A program made the position numbers and the translations under genes. Source: Deltaproteobacteria bacterium (GTDB lineage Bacteria; Myxococcota_A; UBA796; GCA-2862545). Taken from it: a stretch of 39,414 bases of DNA. Positions 8,707 through 38,780 of the stretch are shown here, one piece after another. Location of the stretch: assembly GCA_011376105.1 (NCBI GenBank), contig DRPG01000406.1, forward strand, positions 1 to 39,414, given 5' to 3'. Position 1 is the stretch's first letter, and each line of letters opens with the position of its first letter. A model generated the notes under the pieces. That model searched no databases. It was given only the letters and a program-made list of their open reading frames with translations, and was not told the DNA's origin.

Positions 8707-8785
8707 GCCTGTTGCCTCGCTGAGCCGGGTCCGTCCGGCCGTAGCGCCGCATGATACCCATACCCACCCCGCCCGAGGCACCCCG

Positions 8786-9625: not shown

Positions 9626-9798
9626 GCGCCCACGAACACGTCGCATCGGCTCTGCGCGGGCTCCCCGCCCTGTGTGGCCCCGCCACCGTCGCCTGGGCCG
9701 GATCCCACGCCGATCCCCTGCTGCACGGGATCGGGCTGCGTGCGCTGCACACCGTGGGGCTCAGCTGCGGGGGAGCACGGGATATAGCGGCTGAGTGA
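9622..9798 (+). CDS. Small 58-aa ORF coupled between fdhD and a membrane protein gene
   Basis: GTG at 9622 overlaps the fdhD stop (GTGA), and its own TGA at 9796-9798 overlaps the next GTG start (again GTGA). The peptide begins MSAHEHVASALRGLPALCGP and ends GGARDIAAE, with two Cys and several His. Third positions are strongly G/C. The two exact four-base overlaps are the main support. I do not recognise a family; it might be a remnant of a longer domain or a true small protein. Confidence 0.5.
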   Translation: MSAHEHVASALRGLPALCGPATVAWAGSHADPLLHGIGLRALHTVGLSCGGARDIAAE

Positions 9799-11051
9799 GC
9801 AGCGACGACCCACCCACCCCCGTGCCTGTGGGCTCGGCGCAGAACCTGTTCCGCGGCGCCGCAGCGGGGGGGCTGGCGCTCCTGATCCTGCTGTGCACCG
9901 GCACCTTCAACGGCGCCACCTGGATCGGAGCGCTGCAGCTGAGCGCCGCGGTGCTGGGCAGCTGGGCGATGTGGATCGCGACGGCGCCATCGCCGGGCCC
10001 CGATCGCCGGGGGCCCCGCTGGCTGGCCCGGATCCTGTGGGTTCCCTTCCTGCTGTCCCTGATGTTCGAGCTCCCCCTCGCCTGGCTCGAGGCCCTGGAC
10101 GTGGGGCTGCAGGCCCCGTTCCTGGTCGCGGTGGGCTCCCTGGTGGCGTCCCATGTGCGGCCCCGCTCGGGGCCCGGCCGCAGGCTGCGGATCGACGCGG
10201 CGGTGCTCCTGCTCCTGTTCCTGTGCCTGTGGACCCTCGACGTCGTGAACAGCGTCACCGACGTGGCCACCTCCACCTGGGCCGGAGCCACGTTCTTCTT
10301 CTCGGGGCTGGGCACGGTTGTAGGCGGGATGATCCTCTTCAACCGGCTGCCCGACACCGCCCGGGCGCTGAACCCGGGCATCCTGCACCCCGCCTGGCCC
10401 CGGGCCGCCCAGGAGGGAGGGTGGACGGTGCATGAAGACGCCACCAAGACCCGCTGGCGCGCCCAGATCCCCCTGGGCCCGGTGGGCGCACCGACCCACC
10501 AGGCGACGATCGAGGTCCAGCGCGATCCCGTGCCCCCCCAGACCCGGATCGTCCTGGCGCTCCCCGAGCTCTCGGAGCTGTCCATCACCCGGTGCGCCCC
10601 CGGGGCCAGCCCCATCCCCGGAGAAGATCCAGTGATCCTGGGAGACCCCGTGCTCGACGGTGCCGTGGAGGTCCAGGGCGATCCAGTCCTCGCGCGGCAG
10701 CTCCTCTCCAGGGCGCGGGCGTCGTGGCTGCAGCTGATCCATGGCTGCAGCGGCTCGCTGTGCGATGGCGTCCTGTCCCTGGTGCTCGAGGGCGGCATCC
10801 CCCAGCCGGCCTGGCTCGAGGGCGGCGCCTCCCCGGATCCAGCGGACGTCATCGAGGGCCTGATCGAGCACCTCAACGCGGTGGTCGCCTCGGTGCAGCC
10901 CGGGGCGCGGACGTCCGTGCCGGAGCCGACGTCCGCGCCGGAGCAGGCCCAGGCCCAGGCCCAGGCCCAGGCCCAGGCCCAGGCCCAGGCCCAGGCCCAG
11001 GCCCAGGCCCAGGTTCCCCAGCAGCCCTCTCCAGCCCGTCCCCCCCGGTAG
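9795..11051 (+). CDS. Multi-pass membrane protein with soluble domain and Gln-Ala repeat tail
   Basis: A 418-aa protein starting at a GTG that overlaps the 58-aa ORF stop. The first ~190 residues hold about six hydrophobic helices (for example GLALLILLCTGTF, ILWVPFLLSLMFELPLAWL, LLLLFLCLWTLDVV, GATFFFSGLGTVVGGMILF). Residues about 200-365 are a soluble domain (TTKTRWRAQIPLG-like strands, TRIVLALPELSELSITRC, LLSRARASWLQLIHGCSGSLCDGVL) that I do not recognise. The tail is eleven Gln-Ala pairs followed by a stop just after a C7 run at 11040-11046. Adding one C would continue the frame for about 93 further protein-like codons to 11332, so the annotated end may be an artefact or a true frameshift. 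Confidence 0.7.
   Translation: MSSDDPPTPVPVGSAQNLFRGAAAGGLALLILLCTGTFNGATWIGALQLSAAVLGSWAMWIATAPSPGPDRRGPRWLARILWVPFLLSLMFELPLAWLEALDVGLQAPFLVAVGSLVASHVRPRSGPGRRLRIDAAVLLLLFLCLWTLDVVNSVTDVATSTWAGATFFFSGLGTVVGGMILFNRLPDTARALNPGILHPAWPRAAQEGGWTVHEDATKTRWRAQIPLGPVGAPTHQATIEVQRDPVPPQTRIVLALPELSELSITRCAPGASPIPGEDPVILGDPVLDGAVEVQGDPVLARQLLSRARASWLQLIHGCSGSLCDGVLSLVLEGGIPQPAWLEGGASPDPADVIEGLIEHLNAVVASVQPGARTSVPEPTSAPEQAQAQAQAQAQAQAQAQAQAQAQVPQQPSPARPPR
10944..11009. repeat. CAGGCC hexamer array, eleven perfect units, in frame
   Basis: Eleven identical CAGGCC units encode a run of Gln-Ala pairs near the C-terminus of the membrane protein. Unit length preserves the frame on expansion or contraction. 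Confidence 0.95.
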
Positions 11052-11332
11052 CCACGAGTTCCTGCTGGAGCATCACTCCCTCCGGCCGATGGGAGATCGT
11101 GGCCCCCGCCCCACCATCCCTCGACGATGTGCTCGCCAGCCTCAGGCTGAGCCCCCTGGACACCTTCTACGTCCACCCCCTCGCCGATGGGCAGAGCCAG
11201 CTGGTGGTCTTGGCCCGCACCGTGCGGCTGGCGGAGCGCTGCCAGCTGGATCCACGCCTCGAGCAGCGCAGGATGTGCTCTAGCCCCCGGGATCACCTGT
11301 CGTTCGTCTGCAACGTCCAGGTGACCCACTAG
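11052..11332 (+). pseudogene. Probable displaced C-terminal segment of the upstream membrane protein
   Basis: In the frame one base off from the preceding gene, codons run open to a TAG at 11330-11332 and read like real protein: WSITPSGRWEIVAPAPPSLD, then LDTFYVHPLADGQSQLVVLA, and ending SFVCNVQVTH. No convincing start codon with a ribosome site introduces it. One extra C in the C7 run at 11040-11046 would fuse it to the Gln-Ala tail. Either the upstream gene is truly frameshifted, or the homopolymer was misread, or this is a separate unrecognised gene. Confidence 0.5.
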
Positions 11333-11416
11333 CCGATCCCGCCCGCGAGATCTCCTTGCCTCGCGCCGATCCCACCGGTTAGCGCAGGGGTGAACCTGGT
11401 CGCCCTGGAGGTACCG

Positions 11417-11464
11417 ATGATCCCCTCCAACTACGAACCCACACACCCCGACCTTCGTAGCTGA
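11417..11464 (+). CDS. Possible 15-codon leader-like ORF
   Basis: ATG at 11417 follows a GGAGG site with five-base spacing and encodes MIPSNYEPTHPDLRS before TGA. It lies alone in the 214-bp gap between the membrane protein and the metallophosphoesterase. The good ribosome site is the only support; it may be chance or a leader peptide. Confidence 0.2.
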   Translation: MIPSNYEPTHPDLRS

Positions 11465-11546
11465 GGCCAGCTCTAGCTCACCCCCCCACGGTGGTGATCC
11501 GCTACGGCGCCTCAGCCCTGCATCCATTGCAGCTCCAGGTTCCGTG

Positions 11547-12491
11547 ATGTCCTTTCGTCTCGCCGTGTTTGGCGACGTGCATGGTCGCGTCGCCCTGATG
11601 ATCGCCCTCGCCCGCCGCTGGCAGCAGGAGACCGACCAGCTCTTGGACGGCATCCTCCAGGTCGGCGACATGGGCGCGTTCCCCGATCCCCGTCGCCTCG
11701 ACGGGGCGACCGCCCGCCATGCACGCCACGATCCTGACGAGCTGGGGTTCTGTGACCTCCTCTCCCCGACTGAGCTCGGCGAGTCCCTGCTCGCCGACGA
11801 TGAGACCCCACCGATCGCGTTCTGCCGGGGTGACCACGAAGACCACGAGTTCCTGAGCCAGTTCAGGTCTCCGACCGCCCTGGATCCCTGGAACAAGCTC
11901 TGGTTCATCCCCGACGGGCAGCGCATGCACTGGCGTGGCCCTGGAGGCTCGCTGGTGGTGGGCGCCTTTGGCGGTGCTCCGCCCCGGGTCGCGCGACACC
12001 GGGGCCATGGCACACGGCGCAGGCCCGCAGCCCCCCGCTGGAGCCTCGGGCCCGAGTTCAGCGACGACGAGGTCGATCTCGCGTTCCCCTGCAACACCCC
12101 GCTGGACGTGCTGCTGACCCACGCAGGCCCGGCCCACCCCGCGCTGCCCCACGGGAGCTCCGCCCTGGCCCGGCTGGCGCGTCGGCTGCGCCCGGCGGTT
12201 CACGTCTTCGGCCACCACCACCAGGCCCTGGGCCCGATCGAGGGGCGCGACGGGTTGCTGGTGGGCCTCGAGCACCTAGACCTCCTCCGGGACGGGAGCC
12301 TGCGCCCTGGTGCGTGGGGGGTGCTGCACCTCGCGCCGGGCCACGCTCGCTTCGAGCGGATCGATCCCCCCGAGCACGCCTGGCTGCTAGACCACAGCAG
12401 GGTGCGCGATCGCGCTCCGCCACACCCCCGGGCCCGGGCCGGGGCTCAGGCCCGGGCTCAGCCCCCCGGAGCGCGGCCCGGCTCCCTGTAG
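11547..12491 (+). CDS. Calcineurin-like metallophosphoesterase
   Basis: A 314-aa protein (ATG at 11547; an adjacent GTG three bases earlier is possible). The dimetal motifs of the family appear in order: FGDVHG at residue 8, LQVGDMG, CRGDHEDHEF (in place of the usual GNH[DE]), LLTHAGPAHP and VFGHHHQALG. The Asn of the GNHE block is replaced by Asp, which is unusual because that Asn normally binds metal and substrate. Members hydrolyse phosphomono- or diesters; the substrate here is unknown. No signal peptide is seen. The last ~25 residues are low-complexity Ala/Arg/Pro, and the final codons plus stop are the first unit of a 20-bp tandem repeat, so the tail was probably made by repeat expansion. 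Confidence 0.85.
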   Translation: MSFRLAVFGDVHGRVALMIALARRWQQETDQLLDGILQVGDMGAFPDPRRLDGATARHARHDPDELGFCDLLSPTELGESLLADDETPPIAFCRGDHEDHEFLSQFRSPTALDPWNKLWFIPDGQRMHWRGPGGSLVVGAFGGAPPRVARHRGHGTRRRPAAPRWSLGPEFSDDEVDLAFPCNTPLDVLLTHAGPAHPALPHGSSALARLARRLRPAVHVFGHHHQALGPIEGRDGLLVGLEHLDLLRDGSLRPGAWGVLHLAPGHARFERIDPPEHAWLLDHSRVRDRAPPHPRARAGAQARAQPPGARPGSL

Positions 12492-12560
12492 CGCGGCCCG
12501 GCTCCCTGTAGCGCGGCCCGGCTCCCTGTAGCGCGGCCCGGCTCCCTGTAGCGCGGCCCA
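12471..12560. repeat. 20-bp tandem repeat starting inside the phosphoesterase 3' end
   Basis: Unit GCGCGGCCCGGCTCCCTGTA, four perfect copies (12471, 12491, 12511, 12531) plus a ten-base partial. The first copy encodes the last residues of the phosphoesterase, and the TAG stop straddles the first copy boundary (12489-12491), so the stop triplet recurs every 20 bp. Confidence 0.95.
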
Positions 12561-12608
12561 CCAGCGCCCGCTCCGACCGCTCCGACCGCTCGGGAGCGCC
12601 CGGTGGAC

Positions 12609-13967
12609 TCAGAACACGAAGTAGAGGAAGTCGGCGTCGGTGGGGCGCCACATCACGAAGACCGCGGCGAGCATCAGGGAGACTCCGAACACCTGCAGCG
12701 GCAGGGACCAGGGGCTCTGCTCGACCCAGCGGGGGTTGGTGTTCCAGCGCTCGGCGACCAGCTGACCGATCCCCAGGGGCACCGCGAGCAGCATCGCAAG
12801 CCCGAGGATGGACAGCCCGGAGACGACCTCCTCCCAGGTGCCCACCCAGAAGGGACGCATCAGGTGGCCCACCATCCGGGGGGTACTCGGCTCCCGAAAG
12901 ATCATCGCCCCCACCCAACCCACGAACACCAGGTAGAACACGGCCATGAAGGGGCGGAGCCTCGGGTTCCGCCACGGTGCCCAGGGCTCTAGCAGGGTGT
13001 AGAACCCGGTGATGATCGCGTGGAACAGGCCAAAGATGACGAAGTGCCAGCCTGATCCGTGCCAGACCCCCATGATGAACAGCGCCATCCCGGTGGCCCA
13101 GACCCGCCGCAGCGGCCCCGGTGTGCCCTGGCCGAGCAGCGGACCCAGCAGGTGATCCCGCACGAACCGGGTGACGGTGAGATGCCAGCGGGACCAGAAC
13201 TCGGACGTGGTGGTGGCCCGCCAGGGCGCGTTGAAGTTCTTCGACAGCGTGATCCCGATCAGCAGGGCCGCGCCCCGGGCCAGATCGGTGTAGCCGGACA
13301 GATCGGCGTAGACCTGGACCATGAACGCAGCGGACGCAGCCCAGACGATGGGGCCTCCAGGATCGTTCAGGGCGAACGCTCGATCCACCCAGGGATCGAG
13401 GGAGTCGGAGACCACCATCTTCTGGAACGCGCCCCAGGCCAGCAGCACGATGCCCGCCCGCAGCTGCTGTGTGGTGGCGACCCCGCGGGCCTCCAGCTGG
13501 GGCATCAGCTCCTTGGCGCGCTCGACTGGACCGGCCACCAGCTGGGGGAAGAAGCTGACGAACTGCAACACGTCGATCAGCGACGCCCGGGCCCGGATCC
13601 GACCGCTGGCGACATCCAGCACATAGCCCAGGCTCTGCAGCCCATAGAACGCGAGCCCCAGCGGGACGAACACCGGCAACCCGACGGCGGGGCCGAGGAA
13701 CTTGAACCACACCAGCATGCCGACGTCCTTGAGGACGGCGAGGGTGATCCAGGGGCGCTTGTTCTCAGCCTGCTCCACCACCAGGGCCAGCGCCCAGTCT
13801 GAGACCCCCACTCCGAACAGCAAGAGCAACAGCGAGGGCTGGCCCCAGCCATAGAACAGCACGCTGCCCAGCAACAGGATGGTGGGTCGCCAGCTCGACG
13901 GCACCACGCGGTGGGCCGCGACGACCGCAGCGAGCAACAACGGGAAGGCAGGGTGGACGAAGCTCAA
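12609..13967 (-). CDS. MBOAT-family membrane-bound O-acyltransferase (AlgI/DltB-like)
   Basis: A 452-aa polytopic protein. It starts MSFVHPAFPLLLAAVVAAHR and has about eleven hydrophobic helices. AlgI/DltB-type hallmarks are LLLGSVLFYGWGQPSLLLLL, VPLGLAFYGLQSLGYVLDV, FVSFFPQLVAGPVERAKELMPQL and the catalytic-histidine region FIMGVWHGSGWHFVIFGLFHA. These enzymes move an acyl group across the inner membrane and hand it to a periplasmic partner that acylates polysaccharide or another surface acceptor. The ATG overlaps the stop of the SGNH-like gene (ATGA at 13964-13967), the standard pairing for such systems. Acyl donor and acceptor are unknown. The divergent polyketide synthase 200 bp beyond its partner is a possible acyl source; that is inference. 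Confidence 0.92.
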   Translation of the reverse strand: MSFVHPAFPLLLAAVVAAHRVVPSSWRPTILLLGSVLFYGWGQPSLLLLLFGVGVSDWALALVVEQAENKRPWITLAVLKDVGMLVWFKFLGPAVGLPVFVPLGLAFYGLQSLGYVLDVASGRIRARASLIDVLQFVSFFPQLVAGPVERAKELMPQLEARGVATTQQLRAGIVLLAWGAFQKMVVSDSLDPWVDRAFALNDPGGPIVWAASAAFMVQVYADLSGYTDLARGAALLIGITLSKNFNAPWRATTTSEFWSRWHLTVTRFVRDHLLGPLLGQGTPGPLRRVWATGMALFIMGVWHGSGWHFVIFGLFHAIITGFYTLLEPWAPWRNPRLRPFMAVFYLVFVGWVGAMIFREPSTPRMVGHLMRPFWVGTWEEVVSGLSILGLAMLLAVPLGIGQLVAERWNTNPRWVEQSPWSLPLQVFGVSLMLAAVFVMWRPTDADFLYFVF

Positions 13968-15613
13968 CGTCGAACGAGCTCTGCGCGGGTCACGAGGACG
14001 AAGCCGTCGCTCTCGAGGAGGAGGGTCGGATCGGCCACCTCCGATAGCTCGAGGACCAGCGGCTGTCCAGCCGCCAGGCGCCCCCGGGCGACGACCTCAT
14101 CGCCGTCCTTCAGGGTGGCCCTGAGCTTGGCCCTCCGCCGCACCGGGGTCGCGTCGATCTCGAGGTGGGTCGGAGGCCCCCCCAGGGCCTCGAGGGAGGG
14201 CCAGCGGATCTCGACCTGATCGCCCGGGTACATCCACTGCATCCCGTCACAGGAGCGCTGTGGATCGAGGGCCAGGTGCCAGTAGGATCGATCGTCACGG
14301 GGGGGGATGAACCCGACACGATCCGGGCCGTGGCAGGAGGTACCCAGGGTCAGGTCCCGGCAGGGCCAGCCCGGATCGAGGGTGATGTCGTCGCTGACGA
14401 CCCGGGTGGGGGAGCAGCGGACGTGCAGATCAGTGGCGGACTGGGTCCACACGTCGGTGGGGACCCCCTCGGGGGCGGACAGCCACCGGACCTGCTCCCG
14501 CAGCCCGCGCTCGACGATCGGGGTGGCGGCATCGAGGAAGGGGGGATCCTTGAGGTAGCGCACCTCCCCCAGCTGGCGGGTCAGGGTCCCCCCGGGGAAC
14601 CGCAGCCCCCCGAGCGCATCCACCGCGGCCCTGGGCTCGTGCCCGAGGAACGAGATCAGGGCGCCGGTGAAGCGCTTGGCGCCCTCTTCGTCGAGGTGAT
14701 CGGAGTTCTTGTAGTGGTAGGGACGCATCTCGAGGCCGGTCATGTCGACCCAGCGAACACCGTGGGCCTCGAACAGCTCCGCGGCACGGGCCACGGAGGT
14801 CTCCGGCACGATGTCGGCCTCCTCCGGACGCAGCAGGGGCGAGGCGGGGGGCCGGATCACCACCAGATCGAGCTGGAGCTCGTCGACCAGGTCCATCAGA
14901 TCGGGGACCAGCGAGGCATCGGGGGTGGGCAGGTGCCGCGTAGGCGGGCGCCCCAGCGCGTCGACGTTGATCCGCTCGTTAGACAGGGCGCGCTGCAGCA
15001 CTAGATCAGAGCGGCGGCTCTGGGCGAGGGTCCGGGGCACGGCGGAGCGCAGGCTCCGGCTGATCCGATCCCGCAGCGCCTCCCTGCGCCGGAACAGCTT
15101 GGAGATCTCCTTGCCGGCGGGGTTCGCCAGCACCCTCAGATCCTCGTCGCCCTCCTCGAGCAGGGCCTCCAGACTACCCCGGGCGTCTTCGCTGATCGGC
15201 TGCCGCACCAGCACCAGCTGCAGCCGGCTGACCACCAGCACCAGCTCGGGCCGCCAGTCGGTGCCCCGGAGCTTGCGCAGCATCGCGAGCCAGTGGGCGG
15301 TGTTGGCGTTGGGGATCGACAGCACTGCGATCTGCTGGGCGGGGATCTGGAGGTGGCGGGACAGCAGCTCTGGATCGATGTCGGTGTTGGCGTTGGAGTT
15401 GCCCAGGACCCAGACCGGCAGCTTGCGACGGATGACGTTGTCCATCGCGGTGCCGATGCCGTTGCGGCGCACCATCCCACCGAGGACCTGGCCCGTGTTC
15501 CGATCCGCCTTGAGATCGCTGACCGTCGGCGCCAGCAGGCCGACCAGGACCAGGACGATCGCTGGTATTGGCGCCAGAAAGGCCATAATCTGCGGGATCT
15601 TTCCAGGGTTCAT
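13964..15613 (-). CDS. SGNH-hydrolase-like periplasmic partner of the MBOAT acyltransferase
   Basis: A 549-aa protein with an N-terminal membrane anchor (IMAFLAPIPAIVLVLVGLLAP) facing its bulk to the periplasm. The catalytic domain opens with VWVLGNSNANTDIDPELL (nucleophile block, GNS), continues with LVLVVSRLQLVLV and closes with the paired acid/base block YHYKNSDHLDEEGAKRFTGAL, as in AlgJ/AlgX/DltD-type O-acetylation partners. Residues about 370-549 are an additional domain containing Cys pairs (VRCSPTRV, PGWPCRDLTLGTSCHG) and beta strands, possibly carbohydrate binding; I do not recognise it. Overlapping stop/start with the MBOAT gene implies a stoichiometric pair. It would transfer the acyl group to a surface glycan or lipid. 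Confidence 0.8.
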   Translation of the reverse strand: MNPGKIPQIMAFLAPIPAIVLVLVGLLAPTVSDLKADRNTGQVLGGMVRRNGIGTAMDNVIRRKLPVWVLGNSNANTDIDPELLSRHLQIPAQQIAVLSIPNANTAHWLAMLRKLRGTDWRPELVLVVSRLQLVLVRQPISEDARGSLEALLEEGDEDLRVLANPAGKEISKLFRRREALRDRISRSLRSAVPRTLAQSRRSDLVLQRALSNERINVDALGRPPTRHLPTPDASLVPDLMDLVDELQLDLVVIRPPASPLLRPEEADIVPETSVARAAELFEAHGVRWVDMTGLEMRPYHYKNSDHLDEEGAKRFTGALISFLGHEPRAAVDALGGLRFPGGTLTRQLGEVRYLKDPPFLDAATPIVERGLREQVRWLSAPEGVPTDVWTQSATDLHVRCSPTRVVSDDITLDPGWPCRDLTLGTSCHGPDRVGFIPPRDDRSYWHLALDPQRSCDGMQWMYPGDQVEIRWPSLEALGGPPTHLEIDATPVRRRAKLRATLKDGDEVVARGRLAAGQPLVLELSEVADPTLLLESDGFVLVTRAELVRR

Positions 15614-15814
15614 GCCGCCCCCGTGGTGGACAGGAAGGATAGCTCGGGACGAATGGAGTCGCGGAACTCTGTTCGCCCGGACCGAAGACGAGCAAAGCTA
15701 GCGCGCTGCCCCCACCCGTCAACGCAGGCGAGGTGTCCGGATCCGGCTGAACACCGCGGGGGAGGGGCTCACCGGGCCTGAACGGACCGCGCGCTCCATG
15801 TTAGGGAGCGCCCC
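15614..15814. promoter_or_regulatory. Divergent intergenic region between the acyltransferase pair and the PKS
   Basis: 201 bases that must carry both promoters for the SGNH/MBOAT operon (leftward) and the polyketide synthase (rightward). I see no convincing -35/-10 pair. Its right end holds a perfect inverted repeat next to the PKS start, listed separately. Confidence 0.5.
15791..15811 (+). promoter_or_regulatory. Inverted repeat covering the PKS ribosome-binding site
   Basis: GCGCTCC, a seven-base loop ATGTTAG, then GGAGCGC: a perfect 7-bp stem. The right arm contains the GGAG ribosome site six bases ahead of the ATG at 15815. Folded mRNA would hide the site. It could equally be a protein operator. 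Confidence 0.5.
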
Positions 15815-18800
15815 ATGCAGTCTCCCATCGCCATCGTCGGCGTCGAGTTCGTGTTCCCTGGTGGGATCCGAACCCTCGATGCACTCCAGTCCACCCTTGA
15901 GTCCGCGACCCCCCAGGTCGGGCCGATGCCTCCTGGACCCCGCAGGGAGTCGTGGCCCGGGTCCCCTGAGGCGGCCTGGGTCCCCGACATCGAGGCGTTC
16001 GATCCAGGCCCGTTCCAGCTGTCGGAGGCTGAGGCGACCCTGCTCGATCCCCGCCATCGGCTGCTGCTCTACCTCTCCCGCCGGGCGCTGCACGCCACCG
16101 GTGCGCTGCAGGAGTCCGAGGGCTGCGGGGTGTTCCTGGGCCTGGGCAGCTCCGAGTACCGCGAGCTGTGCCCCCCCGGAGATCCCCGGGTGGCCACGGG
16201 CAACGAGGCGAGCACCGCCGCAGGGCGGATCGCCCACAGCTTCGACCTCGGGGGGCCCAACCTGGTGGTGGACACCGCCTGCAGCTCGTCCCTGGTGGCG
16301 CTGCAGCTGGCGTGTCAGGCGCTGAGCAGCGGAGACTGCACCGTAGCGCTGGTCGGTGCAGCCCAGCTCATCGGCTCGGCCGTCGGCTATGAGCGCCTCG
16401 TGCGCACCGGCATCATCTCCGAGCACAGCCGCTGCAGGCCCTACGACGCAGCCGCCGACGGCACGATCCGGGGGGAGGGGGGCGCGGTGCTCGTGCTGCG
16501 CCCCCTCGAGGCGGCCGAGCGGCGTGGCGACGCGATCCTTGGCATCATCCGGGGGATCGCCGTGCGACACGACGGCACCGCGGCGGGCCTGACCGTGCCC
16601 AATGGCCCAGCTCAGGAGCGCACCGTCCGCGCCGCCCTGGCGAGCGCGGGGCTACAACCCGACGCGATCGGGCTGATCGAGGGGCACGGCACCGGCACCT
16701 CGCTCGGCGATCCGATCGAGGTCCGCGCCCTGCACGAGATCTTCGGGGATCGCCCCGTGCCGATCACCTCGACCAAGGCGCTGTTTGGCCACCTGGAGTC
16801 CGCCGCTGGCCTGCTGGGGCTGATCGCGACCTTGGCCGCCCTGCGGGCCGGTCGGATCCCTCCGGTCGGCAACCTGCAGACCCCCTCCCCCCGCCTCCCC
16901 AGCGAGGGTCCACGGCCTAACGCAGCCCTGACGCCGATCGAGGGCACCATCCTCGCAGGGGTGAGCAGCTTTGGGCTGTCGGGCACCAACGCCCACGTGA
17001 TCCTCGAGGCGGGCCCCGGCACGCCCCCCGAGCCCCCGCAGCTGGCGTGGGAGCCACGCCCGCTGTGGGTCGACTCCGATCAGGGCAGCGCGAGCCCTCC
17101 TCAGGAGGTCGTGACCGATCCCGGCGACGTCCGGGCCGCGATCGCGGCGGTGCTGGGGGGCAACCCCGACAACCTCCCCGCCAAGCGCTCGCTGTTCGAG
17201 CTGGGGCTCGACTCGGTGGGCGCCGCTGAGCTCGCCCGCAGGCTCGAGGTGCCGGTCTCCGTCATCTTCGAGCACCCCACCCTCGCCAGCCTCGAGGCCC
17301 GCACCCCCAGGTCTACCCGACGGGCGAGGCCTGTGCGGATCCAGCGCGGTGGCGAAGATCAGATCGCCATCGTCGCCGCGGCCTGTCGGTTCCCTGGCGG
17401 TGCCGACGATCTGGAGTCGTACTTCGAGCTGCTGTGCTCCGATCGGGATCCGATCACCGAGGCCCCCCCCGAGCGTGGGATCGACGGCTTCGGTGGCTAC
17501 CTGACCGACGTGTTCGGCTTCGACGCCGAGGCCTTCGGGCTGTCGCTGCGCGAGGCTGAGGTGATGGATCCTCAGCAGCGCCTGTGGCTCGAGGTGGCCT
17601 CCGAGGTGGTGGAGCGCGCGGCGCTCCACCACGCTGAGCTCGCGAGCACCGGGATGTTCGTCGGTGCCGCCGAGAGCCAGTACCTGCGGGACTGGCGGCA
17701 GCCCCACGTGGCCGTCGGCAACGAGGGCAGCTTCCTCGCCGGCCGCACCGCCCACACCCTCGATCTCGGGGGCCCGGTGATGATGCTCAACACCGCCTGC
17801 TCAGCCTCGCTGGTGGCGGTGCACATCGGCGCCCGGGCCCTGCGCGATCGAGAGTGCGATGCGGTGATCGCCGGTGGCGTCAACCTGATCTTGTCCAACG
17901 CGGCACAGATCATGCTCACCACCCTGGGGGTGCTGTCGCCCACCGGTCGGTGCCACACCTACTCCGAGGCCGCGGACGGCTACGTCCGGGGCGAGGGCGC
18001 GGCCGCGGTCCTGATGATGCGCCACGCCGACGCGGTGGCCAGCGGCCGCAGGGTGCTCGGGGTGATCCGGGGCTCAGCGGTGGCCCATGATGGCCGCACG
18101 GGGGGCGTCGGCGTGCCCGGCCCCGCGACCTGGCGCAAGGTGGTGGTCGACGCCCTCGATCGCGCCAACCTCGGAGGCGACGACATCGGCTACATCGAGG
18201 TCCACGGGAGCGCCACCCCGCTGGGTGACGCGATCGAGGTCAAGACCCTGGGAGAGGCCCTGTCTGCTGCGGGCCGCACCTCACCAGTGTGGGCTGGCTG
18301 TGCCAAGTCCCGGATCGGCCACCTCGAGCAGGCCGCGGGCATGGCGGGGCTGCTGAAGGTGCTGGCGATGCTCAAGCACGGCGTGCGCACCCCCAACCTG
18401 CACTTCGACGAGCCCAGCTCCAGGCTGCCCGAGGGCGTGGTCCGCGTCCCCACCGAGGTCGAGCCCTGGGACGGCCCCCGGATCGCGGGGATCAGCTCGT
18501 TCGGGATCTCGGGCACCGCGTCCCACGTGATCGTGGCCGCCCCTCCCCTCGAAGACGACGAGCCCGCCGCAGCAGACGAGGTGATCTGGGTGCCCCTGTC
18601 GGCCCGCAACGAGGCGGTCGCCGCGGGCCTCGGCCAGCGCCTGGCCGACGCAGTGGTGGGGGGCCTGCCCCCCAGGGACGCCGCCCGCACCCTGGCCGCG
18701 CGGGAGCCGGGCCCGATCCGGGCTGCGATCGCCGCGATCCCGTCCGAGCTGCCCGAGGCGCTCCGCGATCCCGTCTTCGTGCGGGCGGGGGCTCCAAAGA

Positions 18801-21421
18801 TCGCCTGGGTGTTCCCCGGGGTCGGGCCCCAGCGCCTGGCCATGGGGGCCGATCTCGAGGGCATCGAGGCCTGGCTCGACGAGCATGAGGGCGTGGTAGA
18901 GCCGATCCTCGGCCCTGGCCTGCGGGCGATCCTGCTGGATCAAGACGAGCGGATCCGCGACGTCGCCTGGACCGTGACGGCCACCGTCGCGCTGGAGCTG
19001 TGCCTAGCTGAGCGCCTGCTGTCGTGGGGTCTCCGCCCCGCCGCGGTGGCCGGCCACTCCTTCGGAGAGATCACCGCGGCGGCGGTGGCGGGCGTGGTGT
19101 CCACCGATGATGCGCTGCGCCTGGCGGCGATGCGCGGCAAGCGGATGCGCGACGTGCCCGACGACGGCGCGATGGTGGTGGTCCGCACCGACGAGGCCAC
19201 CGCCTCCGCCTCCGTCGGCGACGCGATCGACGTCGCCGCCACCAACAGCCCCACCGAGACCGTCCTGTCCGGCCCCCGGGCCGCGCTGCAGGCCGCGGTC
19301 GAGGAGCTGGGCGTCGACGTGCACTGGCTGAAGTCCGAGCGTGCGCTGCACTCCCGGGCCATGCAGCCGATCGTCGAGCCCTTCGTCGAGGATCTCCGCA
19401 GCCTGGAGATGAGCGCACCGGAGCTGCCGCTGATCACCTGTCTCGACGGCGCCCGGGCGGGGGAGCGTGCGGCGGATCCAGTCCACTGGGGCGCGCTGCT
19501 GCGCAACACCGTCCGGTTCCAGCAGGTGCTCGAGGGCTTGGCCGGCCTGGGCTGTGACACCTTCCTGGAGATCGGGCCCCACCCGACGCTGCTCGGCAGC
19601 GTCGGCACCAACCTGGGGCTGGTCTCCGAGCGGCTGATCCCCACCCTCCGCCGCGATCAGCGGCCCGAGGGTGCGCTGCTCACCGCCGCGGCGCGGCTGT
19701 GGGCGGTGGGGGCGCCGATCGATCCCGAGGCCCGGATCCAGGGTGGCCGGATCTCGTCCGATGTACCGGTGGCGCCTCTGCAGCGCGAGGAGCTGCGCGC
19801 CGAGGGGATCGGCCGGATCGAGGTCAAGATCCCCCACTATCATCACGAGTGGGAGCCCGTCGAGGTCCTCGATGGCCCGAGGAGCGGTCGCTGGGCGGTG
19901 CTGGGCGGCGGCGCGCTGGCGCAGGAGCTTGCTGCGGCGCTGAGCGAGCGGGGGGTCACGGTGCTGGACGCGCCGGAGCCCGGCATCGACGGGCTGGTGT
20001 TCGCGCCCGAGATCCCGCCCGACGCAGCCGGGGCGATGCGGGCCTGCGTGATCGACGCCATCGAGGTGATCAAGGGGCTCGATCCCGGGGTCCGCACCGT
20101 GTTCGCCGGCCGGGGCACGCCGGGCCTGCTCCAGGGCGTCGCCCGGGCCCTGTCCTGGGAGCGCGCCGGCGTCTGTGCGGTGAGCTTCGACGCCGCCTCC
20201 CCGGCCTCGACCTCGGGCTGGGAGCGACCCGAGATCTCCTGGCGGCAGGGGACCGCCCATGGCCCCCACTACGCGCAGCGACCCGCCCCCACACCCCCAT
20301 CACAGATCGCCGGCACCTGGATCGTGATCGGCGGCTTCGGGGCTCTGGGCAAGGGGCTGGGGCTGCGCCTCGCCGCCCGCGGGGCGTCGAGGGTGATCGC
20401 CGCAGGGCCCCGTCCCCGGGCGGTGCCCGAGCCGCTGGAGCCCCGCGAGCTCGACGCCCGGGATCCAGCAGGGCTGGCTGCCCTGATCGAGGAGCTGGGC
20501 GACGTGCAGGGGATCGTGCTCGCCGCCGGCGTGCTCGACGACGCAAAGGTCGAGCACCTCGACGAGGCAAAGGCCCTGCGGGTGCTGGAGCCCAAGGTGC
20601 TCGGGGTCGCGGCGCTGCAGGCCGCAGCCGCAGGGGTCCCCCACTGGATCCTGATGTCGTCGGCGTCGGGCTGGGTGGGCTCTCCAGGCCAGGTCCCCTA
20701 CTCGTCCGCCAACGCCGCGCTGGACGCCGCCGCCCAGGCCCGCCGGGCCGAGGGGCTGCACGCCTGCGCCGTCGCCCTAGGCCCCGTGGCCGACGCGGGC
20801 ATGGCGGCGCGCCAGGGCAACCAGCTGCGCCAGCACCAGGAGCTGCTCGGGATCCGCACCCTCCCCCTGGAGGCCGCCCTGGACGCGCTAGAGGCCGCCC
20901 TGTCCGAGGACGCGCCGGCCCTGCTCGGTGTGTTCGACGTCGACTGGGATCGGCTGCCCCACCAACACGGCTCCGTCAGCCGCGCCACCCACACCGTCAC
21001 CAAGGATCTCACCCAGGACGGCGCGCTGCAGACCGCCCCGCAGCCCCCGTCGGGCACCCCCAAGACGCCCACGGCCCCCACCGATCCCCAGGCGGTCGAG
21101 GAGATCATCACCCGCACCGCCAGGCGCTACCTGCGCAAGCCGATCCCCGATCGCAGCACGGATCTGGTCGAGCTGGGGCTGGACTCCCTGGGGGCCGTCG
21201 GGCTGCGCAACGCCCTCGCCGAGCAGGGGATCGTGCTGCCGGCCTCGCTGATCCTCCGGGGCCCGAGCCTGTCGGAGCTCACCGCCAGCGTGCTCGGCCA
21301 TCACAGCCTGGAGGCCAAGGCCGAGGCATCGGGCACGCCGGCGCCGACCCCCGCGATGGCGGTGGCCCTGACTGTGCTCACCCTCATCTCCGCCGTCGCT
21401 CTGCTGATGGCCCAGGCCTGA
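15815..21421 (+). CDS. Type I polyketide synthase, KS-ACP-KS-AT-KR-ACP with C-terminal membrane tail
   Basis: A 1868-aa multidomain enzyme. KS1 (residues 1-395): DTACSSS with Cys156, EGHGTGT with His291, GHLESAAG with His326. ACP1 (about 435-490): LGLDSV with Ser467. KS2 (about 510-920): NTACSAS with Cys662, EVHGSAT with His797, GHLEQAAG with His836. AT (about 985-1270): GHSFGE with Ser1082; the specificity segment reads RALHS (His1179), not standard HAFH or YASH. KR (about 1490-1720): GGFGALG at 1506, LDD at 1574 (B-type mark), Ser1615/1616, Tyr1629, Asn1633. ACP2 (about 1765-1835): LGLDSL with Ser1791. The end TPAMAVALTVLTLISAVALLMAQA is a hydrophobic helix. No thioesterase, DH or ER is seen. 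The first KS-ACP unit lacks its own AT. All catalytic residues look intact. The product is unknown. Confidence 0.93.
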   Translation: MQSPIAIVGVEFVFPGGIRTLDALQSTLESATPQVGPMPPGPRRESWPGSPEAAWVPDIEAFDPGPFQLSEAEATLLDPRHRLLLYLSRRALHATGALQESEGCGVFLGLGSSEYRELCPPGDPRVATGNEASTAAGRIAHSFDLGGPNLVVDTACSSSLVALQLACQALSSGDCTVALVGAAQLIGSAVGYERLVRTGIISEHSRCRPYDAAADGTIRGEGGAVLVLRPLEAAERRGDAILGIIRGIAVRHDGTAAGLTVPNGPAQERTVRAALASAGLQPDAIGLIEGHGTGTSLGDPIEVRALHEIFGDRPVPITSTKALFGHLESAAGLLGLIATLAALRAGRIPPVGNLQTPSPRLPSEGPRPNAALTPIEGTILAGVSSFGLSGTNAHVILEAGPGTPPEPPQLAWEPRPLWVDSDQGSASPPQEVVTDPGDVRAAIAAVLGGNPDNLPAKRSLFELGLDSVGAAELARRLEVPVSVIFEHPTLASLEARTPRSTRRARPVRIQRGGEDQIAIVAAACRFPGGADDLESYFELLCSDRDPITEAPPERGIDGFGGYLTDVFGFDAEAFGLSLREAEVMDPQQRLWLEVASEVVERAALHHAELASTGMFVGAAESQYLRDWRQPHVAVGNEGSFLAGRTAHTLDLGGPVMMLNTACSASLVAVHIGARALRDRECDAVIAGGVNLILSNAAQIMLTTLGVLSPTGRCHTYSEAADGYVRGEGAAAVLMMRHADAVASGRRVLGVIRGSAVAHDGRTGGVGVPGPATWRKVVVDALDRANLGGDDIGYIEVHGSATPLGDAIEVKTLGEALSAAGRTSPVWAGCAKSRIGHLEQAAGMAGLLKVLAMLKHGVRTPNLHFDEPSSRLPEGVVRVPTEVEPWDGPRIAGISSFGISGTASHVIVAAPPLEDDEPAAADEVIWVPLSARNEAVAAGLGQRLADAVVGGLPPRDAARTLAAREPGPIRAAIAAIPSELPEALRDPVFVRAGAPKIAWVFPGVGPQRLAMGADLEGIEAWLDEHEGVVEPILGPGLRAILLDQDERIRDVAWTVTATVALELCLAERLLSWGLRPAAVAGHSFGEITAAAVAGVVSTDDALRLAAMRGKRMRDVPDDGAMVVVRTDEATASASVGDAIDVAATNSPTETVLSGPRAALQAAVEELGVDVHWLKSERALHSRAMQPIVEPFVEDLRSLEMSAPELPLITCLDGARAGERAADPVHWGALLRNTVRFQQVLEGLAGLGCDTFLEIGPHPTLLGSVGTNLGLVSERLIPTLRRDQRPEGALLTAAARLWAVGAPIDPEARIQGGRISSDVPVAPLQREELRAEGIGRIEVKIPHYHHEWEPVEVLDGPRSGRWAVLGGGALAQELAAALSERGVTVLDAPEPGIDGLVFAPEIPPDAAGAMRACVIDAIEVIKGLDPGVRTVFAGRGTPGLLQGVARALSWERAGVCAVSFDAASPASTSGWERPEISWRQGTAHGPHYAQRPAPTPPSQIAGTWIVIGGFGALGKGLGLRLAARGASRVIAAGPRPRAVPEPLEPRELDARDPAGLAALIEELGDVQGIVLAAGVLDDAKVEHLDEAKALRVLEPKVLGVAALQAAAAGVPHWILMSSASGWVGSPGQVPYSSANAALDAAAQARRAEGLHACAVALGPVADAGMAARQGNQLRQHQELLGIRTLPLEAALDALEAALSEDAPALLGVFDVDWDRLPHQHGSVSRATHTVTKDLTQDGALQTAPQPPSGTPKTPTAPTDPQAVEEIITRTARRYLRKPIPDRSTDLVELGLDSLGAVGLRNALAEQGIVLPASLILRGPSLSELTASVLGHHSLEAKAEASGTPAPTPAMAVALTVLTLISAVALLMAQA

Positions 21422-21477
21422 TCGGGGCCCACCTCGCTCGACGCGGGCGGTATGCTTGCTGAAACGACGAGGTGGAC

Positions 21478-21798
21478 ATGGCGCAAGAAGACAGCGAGGT
21501 GACCGATAGCTTCCCCGTTCCGCGCCTGGCCCCGCCGGAGGAGGCACCGAAGATCTCTGTGCGGTCGGATGCTGGTGCGCTGTCGGGGGTGGTCCTGTCG
21601 GTGAACGGCGATGAGATCGCGGTGATCCTCTCCGGGTCTGTGTCGATCGACACCCAGGTCGAGGTCGAGACCGAGGCCGCGCCCAAGATCACGTCGATCG
21701 GGGTCGTGATCTGGAGCCGGGAGGACGACGGCGAGACTGCCCTGGGGATCGAGATCGTTGGCGGTGCCAGCGAGTGGAAGGAGCTGGTCGAGGGCTGA
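21478..21798 (+). CDS. Small PilZ-like protein
   Basis: A 106-aa protein beginning MAQEDSEVTDSFPVPRLAPP, then a beta-rich domain (ISVRSDAGALSGVVLSVNGDEIAVILSG, VEVETEAAPKITSIGVVIWS, ETALGIEIVGGASEW). The strand pattern and the closing LGIEIV resemble PilZ barrels. The c-di-GMP-binding RxxxR and [D/N]xSxxG motifs are not visible, so ligand binding is doubtful. GAGGTGG lies three to four bases ahead of the ATG; a GTG at 21472 is an alternative in-frame start without its own ribosome site. It follows the PKS by 56 bases and a possible hairpin terminator comes just after its stop. The domain assignment is tentative. Confidence 0.7.
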   Translation: MAQEDSEVTDSFPVPRLAPPEEAPKISVRSDAGALSGVVLSVNGDEIAVILSGSVSIDTQVEVETEAAPKITSIGVVIWSREDDGETALGIEIVGGASEWKELVEG

Positions 21799-21804
21799 TC
21801 GGAG

Positions 21805-21823
21805 GCCCGGAGCCGCTCCGGGC
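21805..21823 (+). terminator. GC-rich hairpin after the PilZ-like gene
   Basis: GCCCGGAG, loop CCG, CTCCGGGC: a perfect 8-bp stem seven bases past the stop codon. No T-run follows, so it may act as a weak or factor-assisted terminator or only as a 3' stabiliser. Confidence 0.4.
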
Positions 21824-21849
21824 TCGCTCCCCGAGACGAGCCGGGCTCC

Positions 21850-21981
21850 CGGGCTCCACCCCCGCCCCCTCGCCAGCCACCCACCGGGCCCCTCAGACTC
21901 GTCGCTCTGCAGCACGATCTCCTTGGTCAGATCGGCGCCGGCCCGGGTGCCGATCACCCGGATCTCCTCTCCATCCCGGAG
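21850..21981 (-). pseudogene. Protein-like fragment of unknown origin
   Basis: Reading left from 21981, codons after an in-frame TGA (21984-21982) give LRDGEEIRVIGTRAGADLTK followed by EIVLQSDESEGPGGWLA, with G/C-rich third positions typical of genes here. The frame then stays open as antisense to the PilZ-like gene but loses protein character. No start codon with a ribosome site is obvious except a GTG at 21957. It looks like a remnant; the family is not recognised. Confidence 0.3.
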
Positions 21982-22056
21982 TCACTGGGCCAGATGGCTC
22001 TGGTGGCCATCCCTCCACAGGCTAGCAACAGATCAGCAGGACCAGAGTAGAGTGGC

Positions 22057-22062
22057 TATAGT
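22057..22062 (+). promoter_or_regulatory. Possible -10 element of a leaderless transcript
   Basis: TATAGT ends six bases before the ATG of the sulfatase-like gene, and no ribosome site is seen upstream of that ATG. Transcription would begin at or next to the start codon. No good -35 match is visible at the usual distance. Confidence 0.25.
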
Positions 22063-22068
22063 GCGCGC

Positions 22069-23442
22069 ATGGAACGCATGCTCCTCCCAATCGCCCTGCT
22101 CTGTGCGTGCAACCCCCCGGATGTCACGGACGAGACCCTCCCCACCTACAGCGAGATCGATCAGCCCGAGGTGGGCACCGACGTGCTCACCTTCCGAGGG
22201 CGCGTTCCGAAGAACCTGATCTTCTTGTCGATCGACACCTTCCGCAAGGATCATGTCGGGATCCACGGGAGCCTGGGGCTCACCCCATTCATCGACAGCA
22301 TCGCCCAACAGGGCGTGGTCCTCGATAACCACAGCCAGTGCTCCAACTGGACCTATGGCTCGACCACCTGCACCCTCGCGGGCCGCACCAACATCGAGCG
22401 GGGCCAGCTGCCGAGGCTCAACGGCAACGATCAGAGTCGCACCAAGGTCGCCCCCGGCACGCCGTTCCTCGCCACCTGGCTCGGCGAGGTGGGCTTCTTC
22501 TCGGGTCTGGTGAGCGCCAACGACTGGCTGAGCCCGAACTGGGGCAACACCCAAGGCTACGATCGGTTCGCCAAGCCGGGGGGTAACGCCCTGACCGTGC
22601 GCGACAAGGGCATGGAGATCATCCGGGAGGGAGTGGCTAAGGGGATCGCCGACAAGTGGTTCCTGCACATGCACTTCATGGAGCCCCACGCGTCCTACGA
22701 TCCACCCTCGGCCAACATCGTGGGACTCGAAGATCTGGCCCCCTGGCCCGAAGATCTCACCGATCGGCCTACCCACTACGACGCGCGGGACGAGTGGCCC
22801 ACGATGCCCGCCGCGGATCAAGCGCTGCTCGAGCAACACCTCCGCCTGCTGTACGCCGGTGAGATCCGCACCATCGACGAGCGCCTCGAGACCATCTGGA
22901 AGGATCTCGACAACCAGGGCTACCTCAACGACACCCTGGTGGTGATCTGGAACGATCACGGCGAGCAGTTCTGGGAGCATGGCCAACAGACCCACGCCTA
23001 CGATCTGTACGGCGAAGAGAACGATGGGTTCGCCATCTTCTGGTCCCGCAACATCGAGCCAAAGCGCTACAGCGGCCCCACCTCCACCATCGATCTGGTC
23101 CCCACCCTGCTCGATCTGTACGGCATCGAGATGCCGTCCGAGGTCACCGGCTACCCCCTGGGCACGGCTCCGGCCGGGCGACCGATCTTCGCCGAAGCCC
23201 TGGCCCGCAGGGGCGGCGTCCAGACCGTCACGGTCGACGGCTGGAAGATGCAGTACACCTGGTCGGGCAAGGTCGAGGTCTACGATCGAAACACCGATCC
23301 ACGGGAGACCGTCGATCTCTACAGCCCCACCGATCCCAAGACCCTGGAGCTGTGGGCCCTGATCAAGCCCCAGGCCGAGGCGATGGCCACCCTGGTGGTC
23401 GATGGAAGCCCGAGCCCGGTCTTCCCCCCCGAGCTGCCCTAG
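22069..23442 (+). CDS. Sulfatase/alkaline-phosphatase-superfamily lipoprotein
   Basis: A 457-aa protein with an N-terminal signal MERMLLPIALLCAC and likely lipidation at Cys14 (LLCAC), so probably anchored to the outer or inner membrane. Superfamily features: NLIFLSIDTFRKDHVGIHG (first metal Asp), a nucleophile region YGSTTCTLAGRTNIERG, HMHFMEPHASYDPP, and VVIWNDHGEQFWEHGQQTHAYDLYGE (metal Asp-His). The Cys101 context is C-T-L-A-G-R, one residue longer than the CxPxR formylglycine motif, so conversion to formylglycine is uncertain; a Thr or Cys nucleophile is possible. It may remove sulfate or transfer/cleave a phosphodiester at the cell surface. It is preceded by a 270-bp gap after the PilZ-like gene. 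The substrate is unknown. Confidence 0.82.
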   Translation: MERMLLPIALLCACNPPDVTDETLPTYSEIDQPEVGTDVLTFRGRVPKNLIFLSIDTFRKDHVGIHGSLGLTPFIDSIAQQGVVLDNHSQCSNWTYGSTTCTLAGRTNIERGQLPRLNGNDQSRTKVAPGTPFLATWLGEVGFFSGLVSANDWLSPNWGNTQGYDRFAKPGGNALTVRDKGMEIIREGVAKGIADKWFLHMHFMEPHASYDPPSANIVGLEDLAPWPEDLTDRPTHYDARDEWPTMPAADQALLEQHLRLLYAGEIRTIDERLETIWKDLDNQGYLNDTLVVIWNDHGEQFWEHGQQTHAYDLYGEENDGFAIFWSRNIEPKRYSGPTSTIDLVPTLLDLYGIEMPSEVTGYPLGTAPAGRPIFAEALARRGGVQTVTVDGWKMQYTWSGKVEVYDRNTDPRETVDLYSPTDPKTLELWALIKPQAEAMATLVVDGSPSPVFPPELP

Positions 23443-26040: not shown

Positions 26041-27813
26041 TCAGAACATGTGCATCAGCTCCTGATCCAGATCGTAGCCCATGTCCGCGGGGGCAGTGAT
26101 GCTGAAGGCCAGCTCGACCGCGCGCTCCTGCCCCGCAGGGATCGGCAGGGACCAGGTCACCAGGCCGGACTCGTCGTCGACCACCCCACCCGATAGCTCC
26201 AGCACCTTGACGCTCACCCGACCCTCCTCCGAGAGGGGGAGCTGATCCACCATCTCGATCCGTTCGTCGTGATCGGTGTGGTTGCCCACCACCATCCGGA
26301 AGCGGAGGGTGTAGCGGATCCGGCCTGGCCCGGCGCGCTCGTGCTGGCGCTCCAGCAGCTGGCGGGTCACCCGGAACCCGTCGTCGGGTCCAAAGGACAG
26401 GCTCAGGGTCTCCCCGGGCACCACTGAGGCGATGTTTCCGCTGCCGACATAGTCGGGCCCAACGAAGGTGGAGACCTGCCCGGGCATCAGCGGGAACGCA
26501 CCGTTGTAGCTCGCGGTGGCGCGGCGATGGATCTCGGGCGCCCTGCGGGGGACGGTGGCGAGGGACACGACCGCGGCGAGGCGCTGGGTGGCCACCGGCA
26601 GTCGCTGGTGGCTCCCGTCGCCTGCGATGGTCCGCCGACCGCTGATCCCGAACACCACCGCACCGCTACCGCGCACATCGGCGACCAGGCTGCTCTCCAG
26701 CACGCCGACCCCGGCCCCGGCCCCGGCCCCGGCCCCGGCCCCGGCCCCGGCCCCGGCCCCGGCCCCGGGATCCGACCACGACGCGGGGGCGGCGGTCAGC
26801 GCGCCGGTGCCCGCTGCGACCTGCTCATAGATCCCTGAATTGCCCCCGCTGCGGCCCAGCACCCAGGGCTCCAGCTCGGGCAGCGCGCCGGGGCGGGAGA
26901 CCGCGGCGGTGGACAGCTCGATCTCAGCGTCGACCCAGTCCTCTCCGGTGTGCTGGTGGACGACACCGTACTGCTCCAGCGACAGCTCGCTCCCTTCCAG
27001 GCGAGCGTCATAGGCGGGGGTCCAGCTCGCGCCCTCCACTTGATAGCGCAGGCTGGTGGTCACCTCCCCCGCAGCCTCCACCTCCAGCTCCACCCGGATC
27101 GTGCGCCCGGTGGCGAGGGGATCGTCGAGCTTGATCAGCAGCGGCTCCAGCTCCTCAGCCAGCTCCTCGGCGCGCGCCTCCTCCTCCCGCAGCGACAGCG
27201 CGAGCCGGGTCTCGGCCTCCCCGACGTACGCCAGGGTGCCCTTCACATCGGTCAGCCTCGGCGCCGCCGTCGCTCCTGCAGGCATCAGGGCCCTGCGCAG
27301 GTAGGCACGCTGCGCCAGCAGGGCCTCCAGGCGATCCTGGACCTCACCCAGCGCGTCGGCCAGCTCGCGGGCCTGCCCCCGGATCGCCTCGCTCTGCTCA
27401 GTGTCATCGATCTCCCCGAGGCCCGAGGTCAGCTCGACGGCCACCACCCGACCCCGGCCCTGGACCAGCCGGGCGTCCAGGCCCTCTGGGGTCAGGGCCA
27501 GGGGGAGCCCCTCGAAGCGCAGGGTGTGCACCCCTGCCTCGAGCTTCAGGGTCTGGGTGCGGGTGACCAGCGCATGATCGAGGAACACCGTGACCCGATC
27601 CAGGGTGGAGTTGGGCTCCAGCGGCAGGGCGGCCTGCTGGACCCCGTAGCCCGGCTCCCCGACGATGGACAGGCCCTCGAAGGCGTACACGGGTGTCTCA
27701 GCGAGCTCCTCCTGTAGCTCGTCGAGATCGAAGTCGAGCCCCATGCGCGCCTTGGCCTCCGAGGCGTAGTCTTGGGCGTGAGCCCCGGTGATGAGCGCGA
27801 AGAGCAGAGTCAT
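26041..27813 (-). CDS. Secreted DUF4139/DUF4140 (MuiA-like) protein
   Basis: A 590-aa protein with a short signal (MTLLFALITGAHA, then QDYASEAK). The N-terminal DUF4140-like domain reads VTVFLDHALVTRTQTLKLEA, then GVHTLRFEGLPLALTPEGLD. A coiled-coil follows (about residues 130-230, QARELADALGEVQDRLEALL). The DUF4139-like part has TSLRYQVEGASWTPAYDARL and HTGEDWVDAEIELSTA, and continues to the end with beta strands. A Gly-Ala run near residue 360 comes from a hexamer repeat. Proteins of this family were named after a mucoidy inhibitor; their biochemical role is unclear. GGAGGTG lies just ahead of the ATG at 27813; a GTG at 27837 is a less likely start. It is divergent from the alpha-2-macroglobulin gene across 137 bp. 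Confidence 0.85.
   Translation of the reverse strand: MTLLFALITGAHAQDYASEAKARMGLDFDLDELQEELAETPVYAFEGLSIVGEPGYGVQQAALPLEPNSTLDRVTVFLDHALVTRTQTLKLEAGVHTLRFEGLPLALTPEGLDARLVQGRGRVVAVELTSGLGEIDDTEQSEAIRGQARELADALGEVQDRLEALLAQRAYLRRALMPAGATAAPRLTDVKGTLAYVGEAETRLALSLREEEARAEELAEELEPLLIKLDDPLATGRTIRVELEVEAAGEVTTSLRYQVEGASWTPAYDARLEGSELSLEQYGVVHQHTGEDWVDAEIELSTAAVSRPGALPELEPWVLGRSGGNSGIYEQVAAGTGALTAAPASWSDPGAGAGAGAGAGAGAGAGAGVGVLESSLVADVRGSGAVVFGISGRRTIAGDGSHQRLPVATQRLAAVVSLATVPRRAPEIHRRATASYNGAFPLMPGQVSTFVGPDYVGSGNIASVVPGETLSLSFGPDDGFRVTRQLLERQHERAGPGRIRYTLRFRMVVGNHTDHDERIEMVDQLPLSEEGRVSVKVLELSGGVVDDESGLVTWSLPIPAGQERAVELAFSITAPADMGYDLDQELMHMF
26709..26768. repeat. CCCCGG hexamer array, ten units, in frame
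   Basis: Ten perfect 6-bp units within the DUF4139 gene encode alternating Gly-Ala on the minus strand. The frame is kept whatever the copy number. Confidence 0.95.
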
Positions 27814-27933
27814 GACACCTCCGCGGCCGGTTGACACCTCCTGAACGGGACGGTTCCCTCCACAGCCCCCTCACGGCCCGCCGGAGGCGCACCCACCCAG
27901 TTGGTGTGTAAGCCCCGGGGCCCGACAGCGTTC

Positions 27934-38273: not shown

Positions 38274-38780
38274 GGGCGCTCCGACACCTGAGGGGGGGGG
38301 CAGGTTCCCGGATCGTGCCCACCGGGAGCCCCCACCCACACCTGGGACAGCAGCATAGGCCAGGTGAGAGGGGTCGGAGCGACCAGACGAGCCCAGGCGC
38401 GTCCGGGCGTCTCACCGGGCGGGCTGCGGGGCACGGGCACGGGCACGGGCACGGGCACGGGCACCCGGGCACGGGCACGGGCACGGGCACGGGCACGGGC
38501 ACCCGGGCACCCGCGCCCGGGCCCCCGCGCCCGGGCACCCGCGCCTGGGCACAGGCCCACGGGGGCTCGTAGACCCACAGCCGCCCCCCGGGCACGATCC
38601 CGGCGCCGAGCGCGCTCTGGAGCTGGGGTCTGGGGGGCGGGCCCCCTGCGCACGGAGATCCACCGACGGCCCTGTGTGGGACGCGACTCGCCGGTCGGGG
38701 CAGGTCGCGCACGGAGATCCACCTCGACCACCGCCGACAGCGATCGAGGGCACCACGGACAAGATCTCCCCGGGTGGGGC
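38274..38780. other. Intergenic region with repeats and a possible short coding remnant
   Basis: 507 bases between two minus-strand genes. Next to 38273 are the GGAG site and a run of nine G (38292-38300) in the leader of the 1352-aa gene. The centre is the GGGCAC-type array. To its right, one minus-strand frame reads LQSALGAGIVPGGRLWVYEP followed by PWACAQARVPG with coding-like third positions, perhaps a gene remnant. A 17-bp direct repeat (GCGCACGGAGATCCACC) occurs near 38649 and 38707. Confidence 0.5.
38429..38535. repeat. GGGCAC hexamer array with CCCGGGCAC variants
   Basis: Runs of six or more GGGCAC units are interrupted by CCCGGGCAC and end in GCGCCCGGGC(A/C)CC variants. It is non-coding as far as I can see; on either strand it would give simple dipeptide runs. 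Confidence 0.9.

Follow-up and report, generated by a model that had tools for sequence, protein, structure and literature searches.

The window (the whole stretch of DNA analyzed here, 39,414 nucleotides) contains a gene for a polyketide synthase (PKS) whose first unit has no AT, whose last domain is not followed by a release domain, and whose final residues are strongly hydrophobic. Modular PKSs of bacteria are commonly regarded as soluble lines ending in a release domain.

Domain architecture of the PKS

The ORF and its domains, all on the plus strand, are arranged as follows:

15815–21421, +: type I PKS ORF, KS1-ACP1-KS2-AT-KR-ACP2-TM, 1868 aa (Pfam, orthologue)
15815–17029, +: KS1, Cys-His-His intact, no AT after it (Pfam, motifs, KS tree)
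17105–17314, +: ACP1, attachment Ser467 (Pfam, motif)
17345–18643, +: KS2 with C-terminal extension (Pfam, motifs; sister to the KS of L144, see below)
18806–19684, +: AT, the sole one in the PKS; GHSFGE, loop RALHS (Pfam, motifs)
20312–20794, +: KR catalytic domain (Pfam, motifs)
21080–21304, +: ACP2, attachment Ser1791 (Pfam, motif)
21350–21418, +: C-terminal hydrophobic helix, proposed TM tail anchor (hydropathy, model helix, orthologue, class recurrence)

The coordinates of the ORF agree with those of the preliminary description. KS1 forms the very start of the protein, with AGGGAG a few bases 5′ of the ATG and no loading domain ahead. The Pfam matches comprised two KS, two PP-binding stretches, and a single AT and KR each, and none was to TE, DH, or ER; a terminal TE or reductase for release was likewise not found by Pfam, and the orthologue (see below) ends alike. 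In residues, KS1 spans ∼1–405, ACP1 ∼431–500, KS2 ∼511–943, AT 998–1290, KR 1500–1660, and ACP2 ∼1756–1830, after which only the tail follows. The catalytic triads of KS1 (C156/H291/H326) and KS2 (C662/H797/H836) are intact, as are the motifs of AT (GHSFGE, H1179) and KR (GGFGALG, S/Y/N) and the attachment serines of both ACPs (Ser467 and Ser1791). With KS, AT, and ACP covalently linked and catalytic residues intact, the protein is a type I PKS. Thus, Pfam and motif inspection bore out the domain order KS-ACP-KS-AT-KR-ACP that had been proposed from the sequence, with its catalytic motifs; the AT-less first unit and the missing release domain, also proposed, are real, the orthologue having the same order and end. 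Because the gap between KS1 and ACP1 is only ∼30 residues, the AT and linker of the first unit are absent, not just degenerate. Two motifs deviate from the norm. KS2 (like that of the orthologue) contains HGSAT instead of the usual HGTGT, and the specificity loop of the AT, RALHS, is as non-standard as had been noted: most relatives have HAFHS, the orthologue RAWHS, and the nearest paralogue NAYHS. Judged by the HAFHS loops of the relatives, the extender is probably malonyl, and the RALHS loop leaves room for others.

Each domain is from a known family. Among the systems most like it are cis-AT modular type I PKSs such as DEBS and CurL, which have in common with the protein a KS-AT-KR-ACP module whose motifs are intact; KS2-AT can be aligned over its length, and EryAI and CurL are the top PDB matches. 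Unlike these, it has an AT-less first unit, no loading or docking domain, no TE, and a C-terminal membrane helix. Canonical cis-AT lines have an AT per extension module and release the chain by a terminal TE or reductase, whereas here one AT stands against two KS-ACP units and neither release domain is present. KS1-ACP1 is an AT-less module as found in trans-AT PKSs of the bacillaene type; in contrast to these, an AT is present in the second unit, and the 21 draft genomes of the same family yielded no discrete AT gene above the FabD cut-off. An ACP-KS-AT core, counted from ACP1, is common to mycobacterial Pks13 (ACP-KS-AT-ACP-TE; NCBIfam match at 440–917), but the score of 741.8 lies below the cut-off of 2100, KS1 and KR are extra, and TE is lacking. 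The best NCBIfam match, PKS_plus_SDR (NF045894; 515–1327), scored 1175 bits, short of its cut-off of 1740, and the protein is therefore not a member.

The C-terminal tail

The end of the protein, MAVALTVLTLISAVALLMA, has a Kyte-Doolittle mean of 2.46 over a 19-residue window. Approximately 20 residues are without charge here and in the orthologue (hydropathy 2.77), and only two residues lie beyond the 19-residue hydrophobic window, which is the single C-terminal helix with few residues after it that is expected of a tail anchor. AlphaFold2, run without an alignment, placed a tail helix at residues 1846–1866 with moderate confidence (mean pLDDT of 71 for the ACP2-tail fragment, lower within the tail). 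The second genome of the genus (G001) encodes a full-length orthologue of 62% identity with the same domain order, and its C-terminus is, as in the window, LLMAQA followed by a stop. Comparison of the final 22 codons (stop included) shows 8 unchanged, 6 with silent differences, and 8 with an altered residue, which is almost always again hydrophobic or small. Because the orthologue keeps both order and end, the tail is no product of a frameshift or assembly error; a sequencing error, frameshift, or assembly fault that hides a release domain is ruled out by the identical end. Two objections that the preliminary description had raised against itself, tail-less homologues and a hidden longer C-terminus, fail because the orthologue keeps tail and stop and similar ends recur in the same family. 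At the level of sequence, the proposed membrane tail has thus held up: hydropathy is high, the model is helical, the orthologue retains it, and similar ends recur in the same family (see below) versus 0 of 136 control ends. On sequence grounds, anchoring of the PKS via its tail is a well supported prediction, and the helix would be inserted into the membrane.

A class of tailed PKSs in one family

When complete PKS C-termini from the same family (f1, 21 genomes) were inspected, 23 of 36 carried one TM helix after the last carrier or other recognized domain, in a sample that consists of the best matches to the window PKS, is hence biased, and includes fragments. No such end occurred among 125 C-termini in named genomes of other groups or among 11 from sister families of the same order. 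Matches to a profile of the last ACP with its tail extended through the helix in f1 alone, whether among 63 genomes of the order, 71 of the class, or 379 sampled from the phylum (with ten candidates scored per genome in the latter). The three outside matches extending closest to the helix columns were retrieved, and none contained a helix.

The larger representatives in f1 are three-module PKSs, (KS-AT-KR-ACP)x3, of 4200–4470 aa. Like the window PKS, they (L130, L131, L132, L138, L140, and L147) have a single helix after the last ACP and no TE, and their last module and ACP are related to it; they differ in that all three modules are complete (KS-AT-KR-ACP), the helix contains an [ST]H motif, and the end is in part Lys/Arg-rich. 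The [ST]H motif, followed by Gly, is present in the helix of most three-module tailed PKSs and of most of the class, and is absent from the tails of the window PKS and its orthologue. Some tailed PKSs continue for 20–55 residues past the helix, and several of these ends are Lys/Arg-rich. No conserved neighbors of the three-module tailed PKSs were found beyond a widespread sulfatase family. Having a helix after the last ACP and no TE, the window PKS is one member, among the shortest, of a larger tail-anchored class, seen only in f1 among the genomes sampled. The membrane tails of this class, seen in one uncultured family only, suggest that its members make their products at the membrane itself.

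A two-step synthase at the membrane and the supply of its carriers

The explanation that fits best, and to which we give modest preference, is that of a TE-less two-step type I PKS held on the inner membrane by its C-terminal tail anchor, with one AT for both ACPs and handover at the membrane. KS1 would accept an acyl starter from a soluble donor, because no loading domain precedes it, and condense it with malonyl-ACP1; KS2 would take the chain over and condense it with malonyl-ACP2; and KR would reduce the last keto group, that of the second step. Because TE is absent and ACP2 adjoins the helix, the finished acyl chain would be presented at the membrane surface, where a membrane acceptor or a membrane enzyme encoded elsewhere may take it. 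We infer the sharing of the AT, the two-step use, and the handover. Against this explanation, the tail of the window PKS is without the [ST]H motif that most class members have; the Lys/Arg-rich ends after the helix in some members would be awkward to translocate; and a conserved off-loading partner was not found in the neighborhoods compared.

The single AT would charge both ACP1 and ACP2, because the first unit is AT-less and no discrete AT was found in the genome. The window PKS is not alone in this respect. Among its tailed relatives, AT-less modules occur in L172 (the first), L143 (the second), L176 (the first), and L218 (the first two of three); the AT of the last module is kept in L172, L143, and L218 and weakly recognized in L176. 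This patchy loss of AT among related tailed PKSs makes AT sharing between modules directly testable. The preliminary description had instead considered loading of ACP1 in trans. Trans-AT PKSs are indeed defined by AT-less modules together with stand-alone ATs (PMC11907408, PMC10394414), and such charging of a tail-anchored enzyme, be it by a discrete AT, the AT of another PKS, or a large FAS-like synthase, would also accommodate L220, a lone tailed KS-ACP-TM protein without an AT of its own that must be charged from outside. Against it, no discrete FabD-type AT scored above the curated cut-off in the genome of the window or in any of the 21 f1 genomes, which are drafts (the former 80.7% complete) in which a discrete AT may be missed; FabD exceeded the cut-off in 9 of 14 control genomes. 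Nearly all of the listed AT matches sit in ORFs of more than 590 aa, and G005 has a single AT match, a weak one, in a frame of 281 aa. With no FabD above the cut-off, sharing of the AT in line is favored over a discrete trans AT; a single AT shared within the polypeptide apparently fits better, and we consider charging of ACP1 from outside rather unlikely.

Many of the best FabD-like domains in f1 genomes lie in ORFs of ∼3250–3580 aa. The example from the genome of the window, on contig C554 (L155, 2181–12542), encodes KS-AT-ACP-ACP-KR-DH with a C-terminal PPTase domain and may be a type I fatty acid synthase standing in for FabD.

Descent and role of the first KS

A tree of KS domains places KS1, together with its orthologue, among KSs of L141, L143, L172, and L176 (support 0.976), and KS1 thus groups with KSs from tailed PKSs containing AT-less modules. 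KS2 clusters with the KS of L144 (support 0.989), a tailed protein of 1521 aa with the order ACP-KS-AT-KR-ACP-TM, which has no KS1 and begins with an ACP. One possible reading of the window gene is that a KS of the L141/L143/L172/L176 kind was placed ahead of an L144-like enzyme.

Because L144 begins with an ACP, a mere priming role of KS1-ACP1 is a serious rival to the two-step reading. KS1 would decarboxylate malonyl-ACP1 or pass a starter to ACP1, and KS2 alone would extend the chain. No loading module lies ahead of KS1, with which the protein begins, and the nearest relative of KS2 indicates that ACP1 can act as a starter carrier. However, the active-site Cys and both His of KS1 are kept in both orthologues, whereas decarboxylating loading KSs usually carry Gln. 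We regard priming as improbable to about the same degree as charging in trans, and retain condensation by both KSs as the preferred reading.

Membrane anchor or docking helix

Modular PKSs often have docking helices at the C-terminus, and the hydrophobic end might likewise be a docking or oligomerization helix that binds a hydrophobic partner protein; some relatives carry stretches rich in Lys/Arg beyond the helix, as would suit a cytosolic end. A docking role is quite improbable, given ∼20 uncharged residues with a hydropathy of 2.46–2.77 and almost only hydrophobic or small exchanges between the orthologues; moreover, none of the 136 control PKS ends resembles the tail, and no partner PKS is next in gene order.

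A membrane anchor is thus the favored role of the helix. No description of a C-terminally membrane-anchored modular PKS was found in the open-access literature, a weak sign of novelty as subscription papers were mostly outside this search. For f1 as a whole, we tentatively propose, as a possibility not yet a probability, that membrane-anchored PKS lines have evolved in which the TM helix replaces the release domain, some AT-less modules share an AT within the protein, and hydroxylated acyl chains, serving as lipids or their precursors, are built directly at the inner membrane. If so, the helix-ended PKSs of f1 would combine chain building with off-loading at the membrane, their products would be lipid-like, cluster mining would call such lines incomplete, and the tail would offer a portable membrane anchor for engineering.

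Neighboring genes

The genes flanking the PKS are:

12609–13967, −: MBOAT acyltransferase; considered as a partner, adjacency to the PKS not conserved
13964–15613, −: SGNH/AlgJ-like protein, recognized by eye without a Pfam match; forms a pair with the MBOAT, adjacency to the PKS not conserved
21478–21798, +: small protein, no Pfam match; 3′ of the PKS in both genomes of the genus
22069–23442, +: sulfatase-superfamily lipoprotein (lipobox by eye); 3′ of the PKS in both genomes of the genus

The order PKS, small protein, sulfatase-superfamily lipoprotein is kept in G001. On the other side, synteny with G001 breaks at 15614–15814, between the MBOAT-SGNH pair and the PKS: window positions 6667–15613 match contig C220 of G001, and 15815–23442 match contig C16. 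The pair was rejected as a conserved off-loading partner, because the breakpoint parts it from the PKS (the orthologous pair lies on C220, the PKS on C16). That the PKS passes its acyl chain to this pair for export and attachment, in the manner of DltC-DltB-DltD, is very improbable, even though the pair is directly upstream and divergent, a carrier protein supplies the acyl group to the MBOAT DltB (PMC9338922, PMC11035591), and another MBOAT-SGNH pair lies ∼6 kb from the related tailed PKS L144, since in G001 pair and PKS are on separate contigs with the breakpoint between them, and nine MBOATs in G000 make chance nearness not rare. SGNH relatives were seen within ∼10 kb of three other tailed PKSs, a post hoc count that is only suggestive.

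Elsewhere in f1, at L223 4500–8131 and L224 (G004 C108, G016 C55), an MBOAT gene is directly followed by an ORF of 718 aa that begins, by eye, with a sequence resembling acyl-AMP ligases and has an ACP at its C-terminus. The two genes may form an acylation system in which a carrier delivers to the MBOAT.

The sulfatase-superfamily lipoprotein has many paralogues per genome (38 matches in its own). Its active-site stretch reads TTCTLAGR, which on visual inspection would allow Thr as the nucleophile (T-x-A-x-R), the arrangement of phosphotransferases, in place of the Cys of sulfatases. Further downstream, 27951–34154 encodes a bacterial alpha-2-macroglobulin of 2067 aa with a bait-region domain and, by eye, a lipobox and a CTEQ thioester motif, and 34215–38339 (minus strand) a protein of 1374 aa that has several hydrophobic segments and matched no Pfam model at 0.001. 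Low-complexity dipeptide runs are present in three ORFs of the window: (TG/TA)n in 345–1526, together with partial DnaJ and HTH_25, (QA)n in 9795–11051, and (GA)n in 26041–27837.
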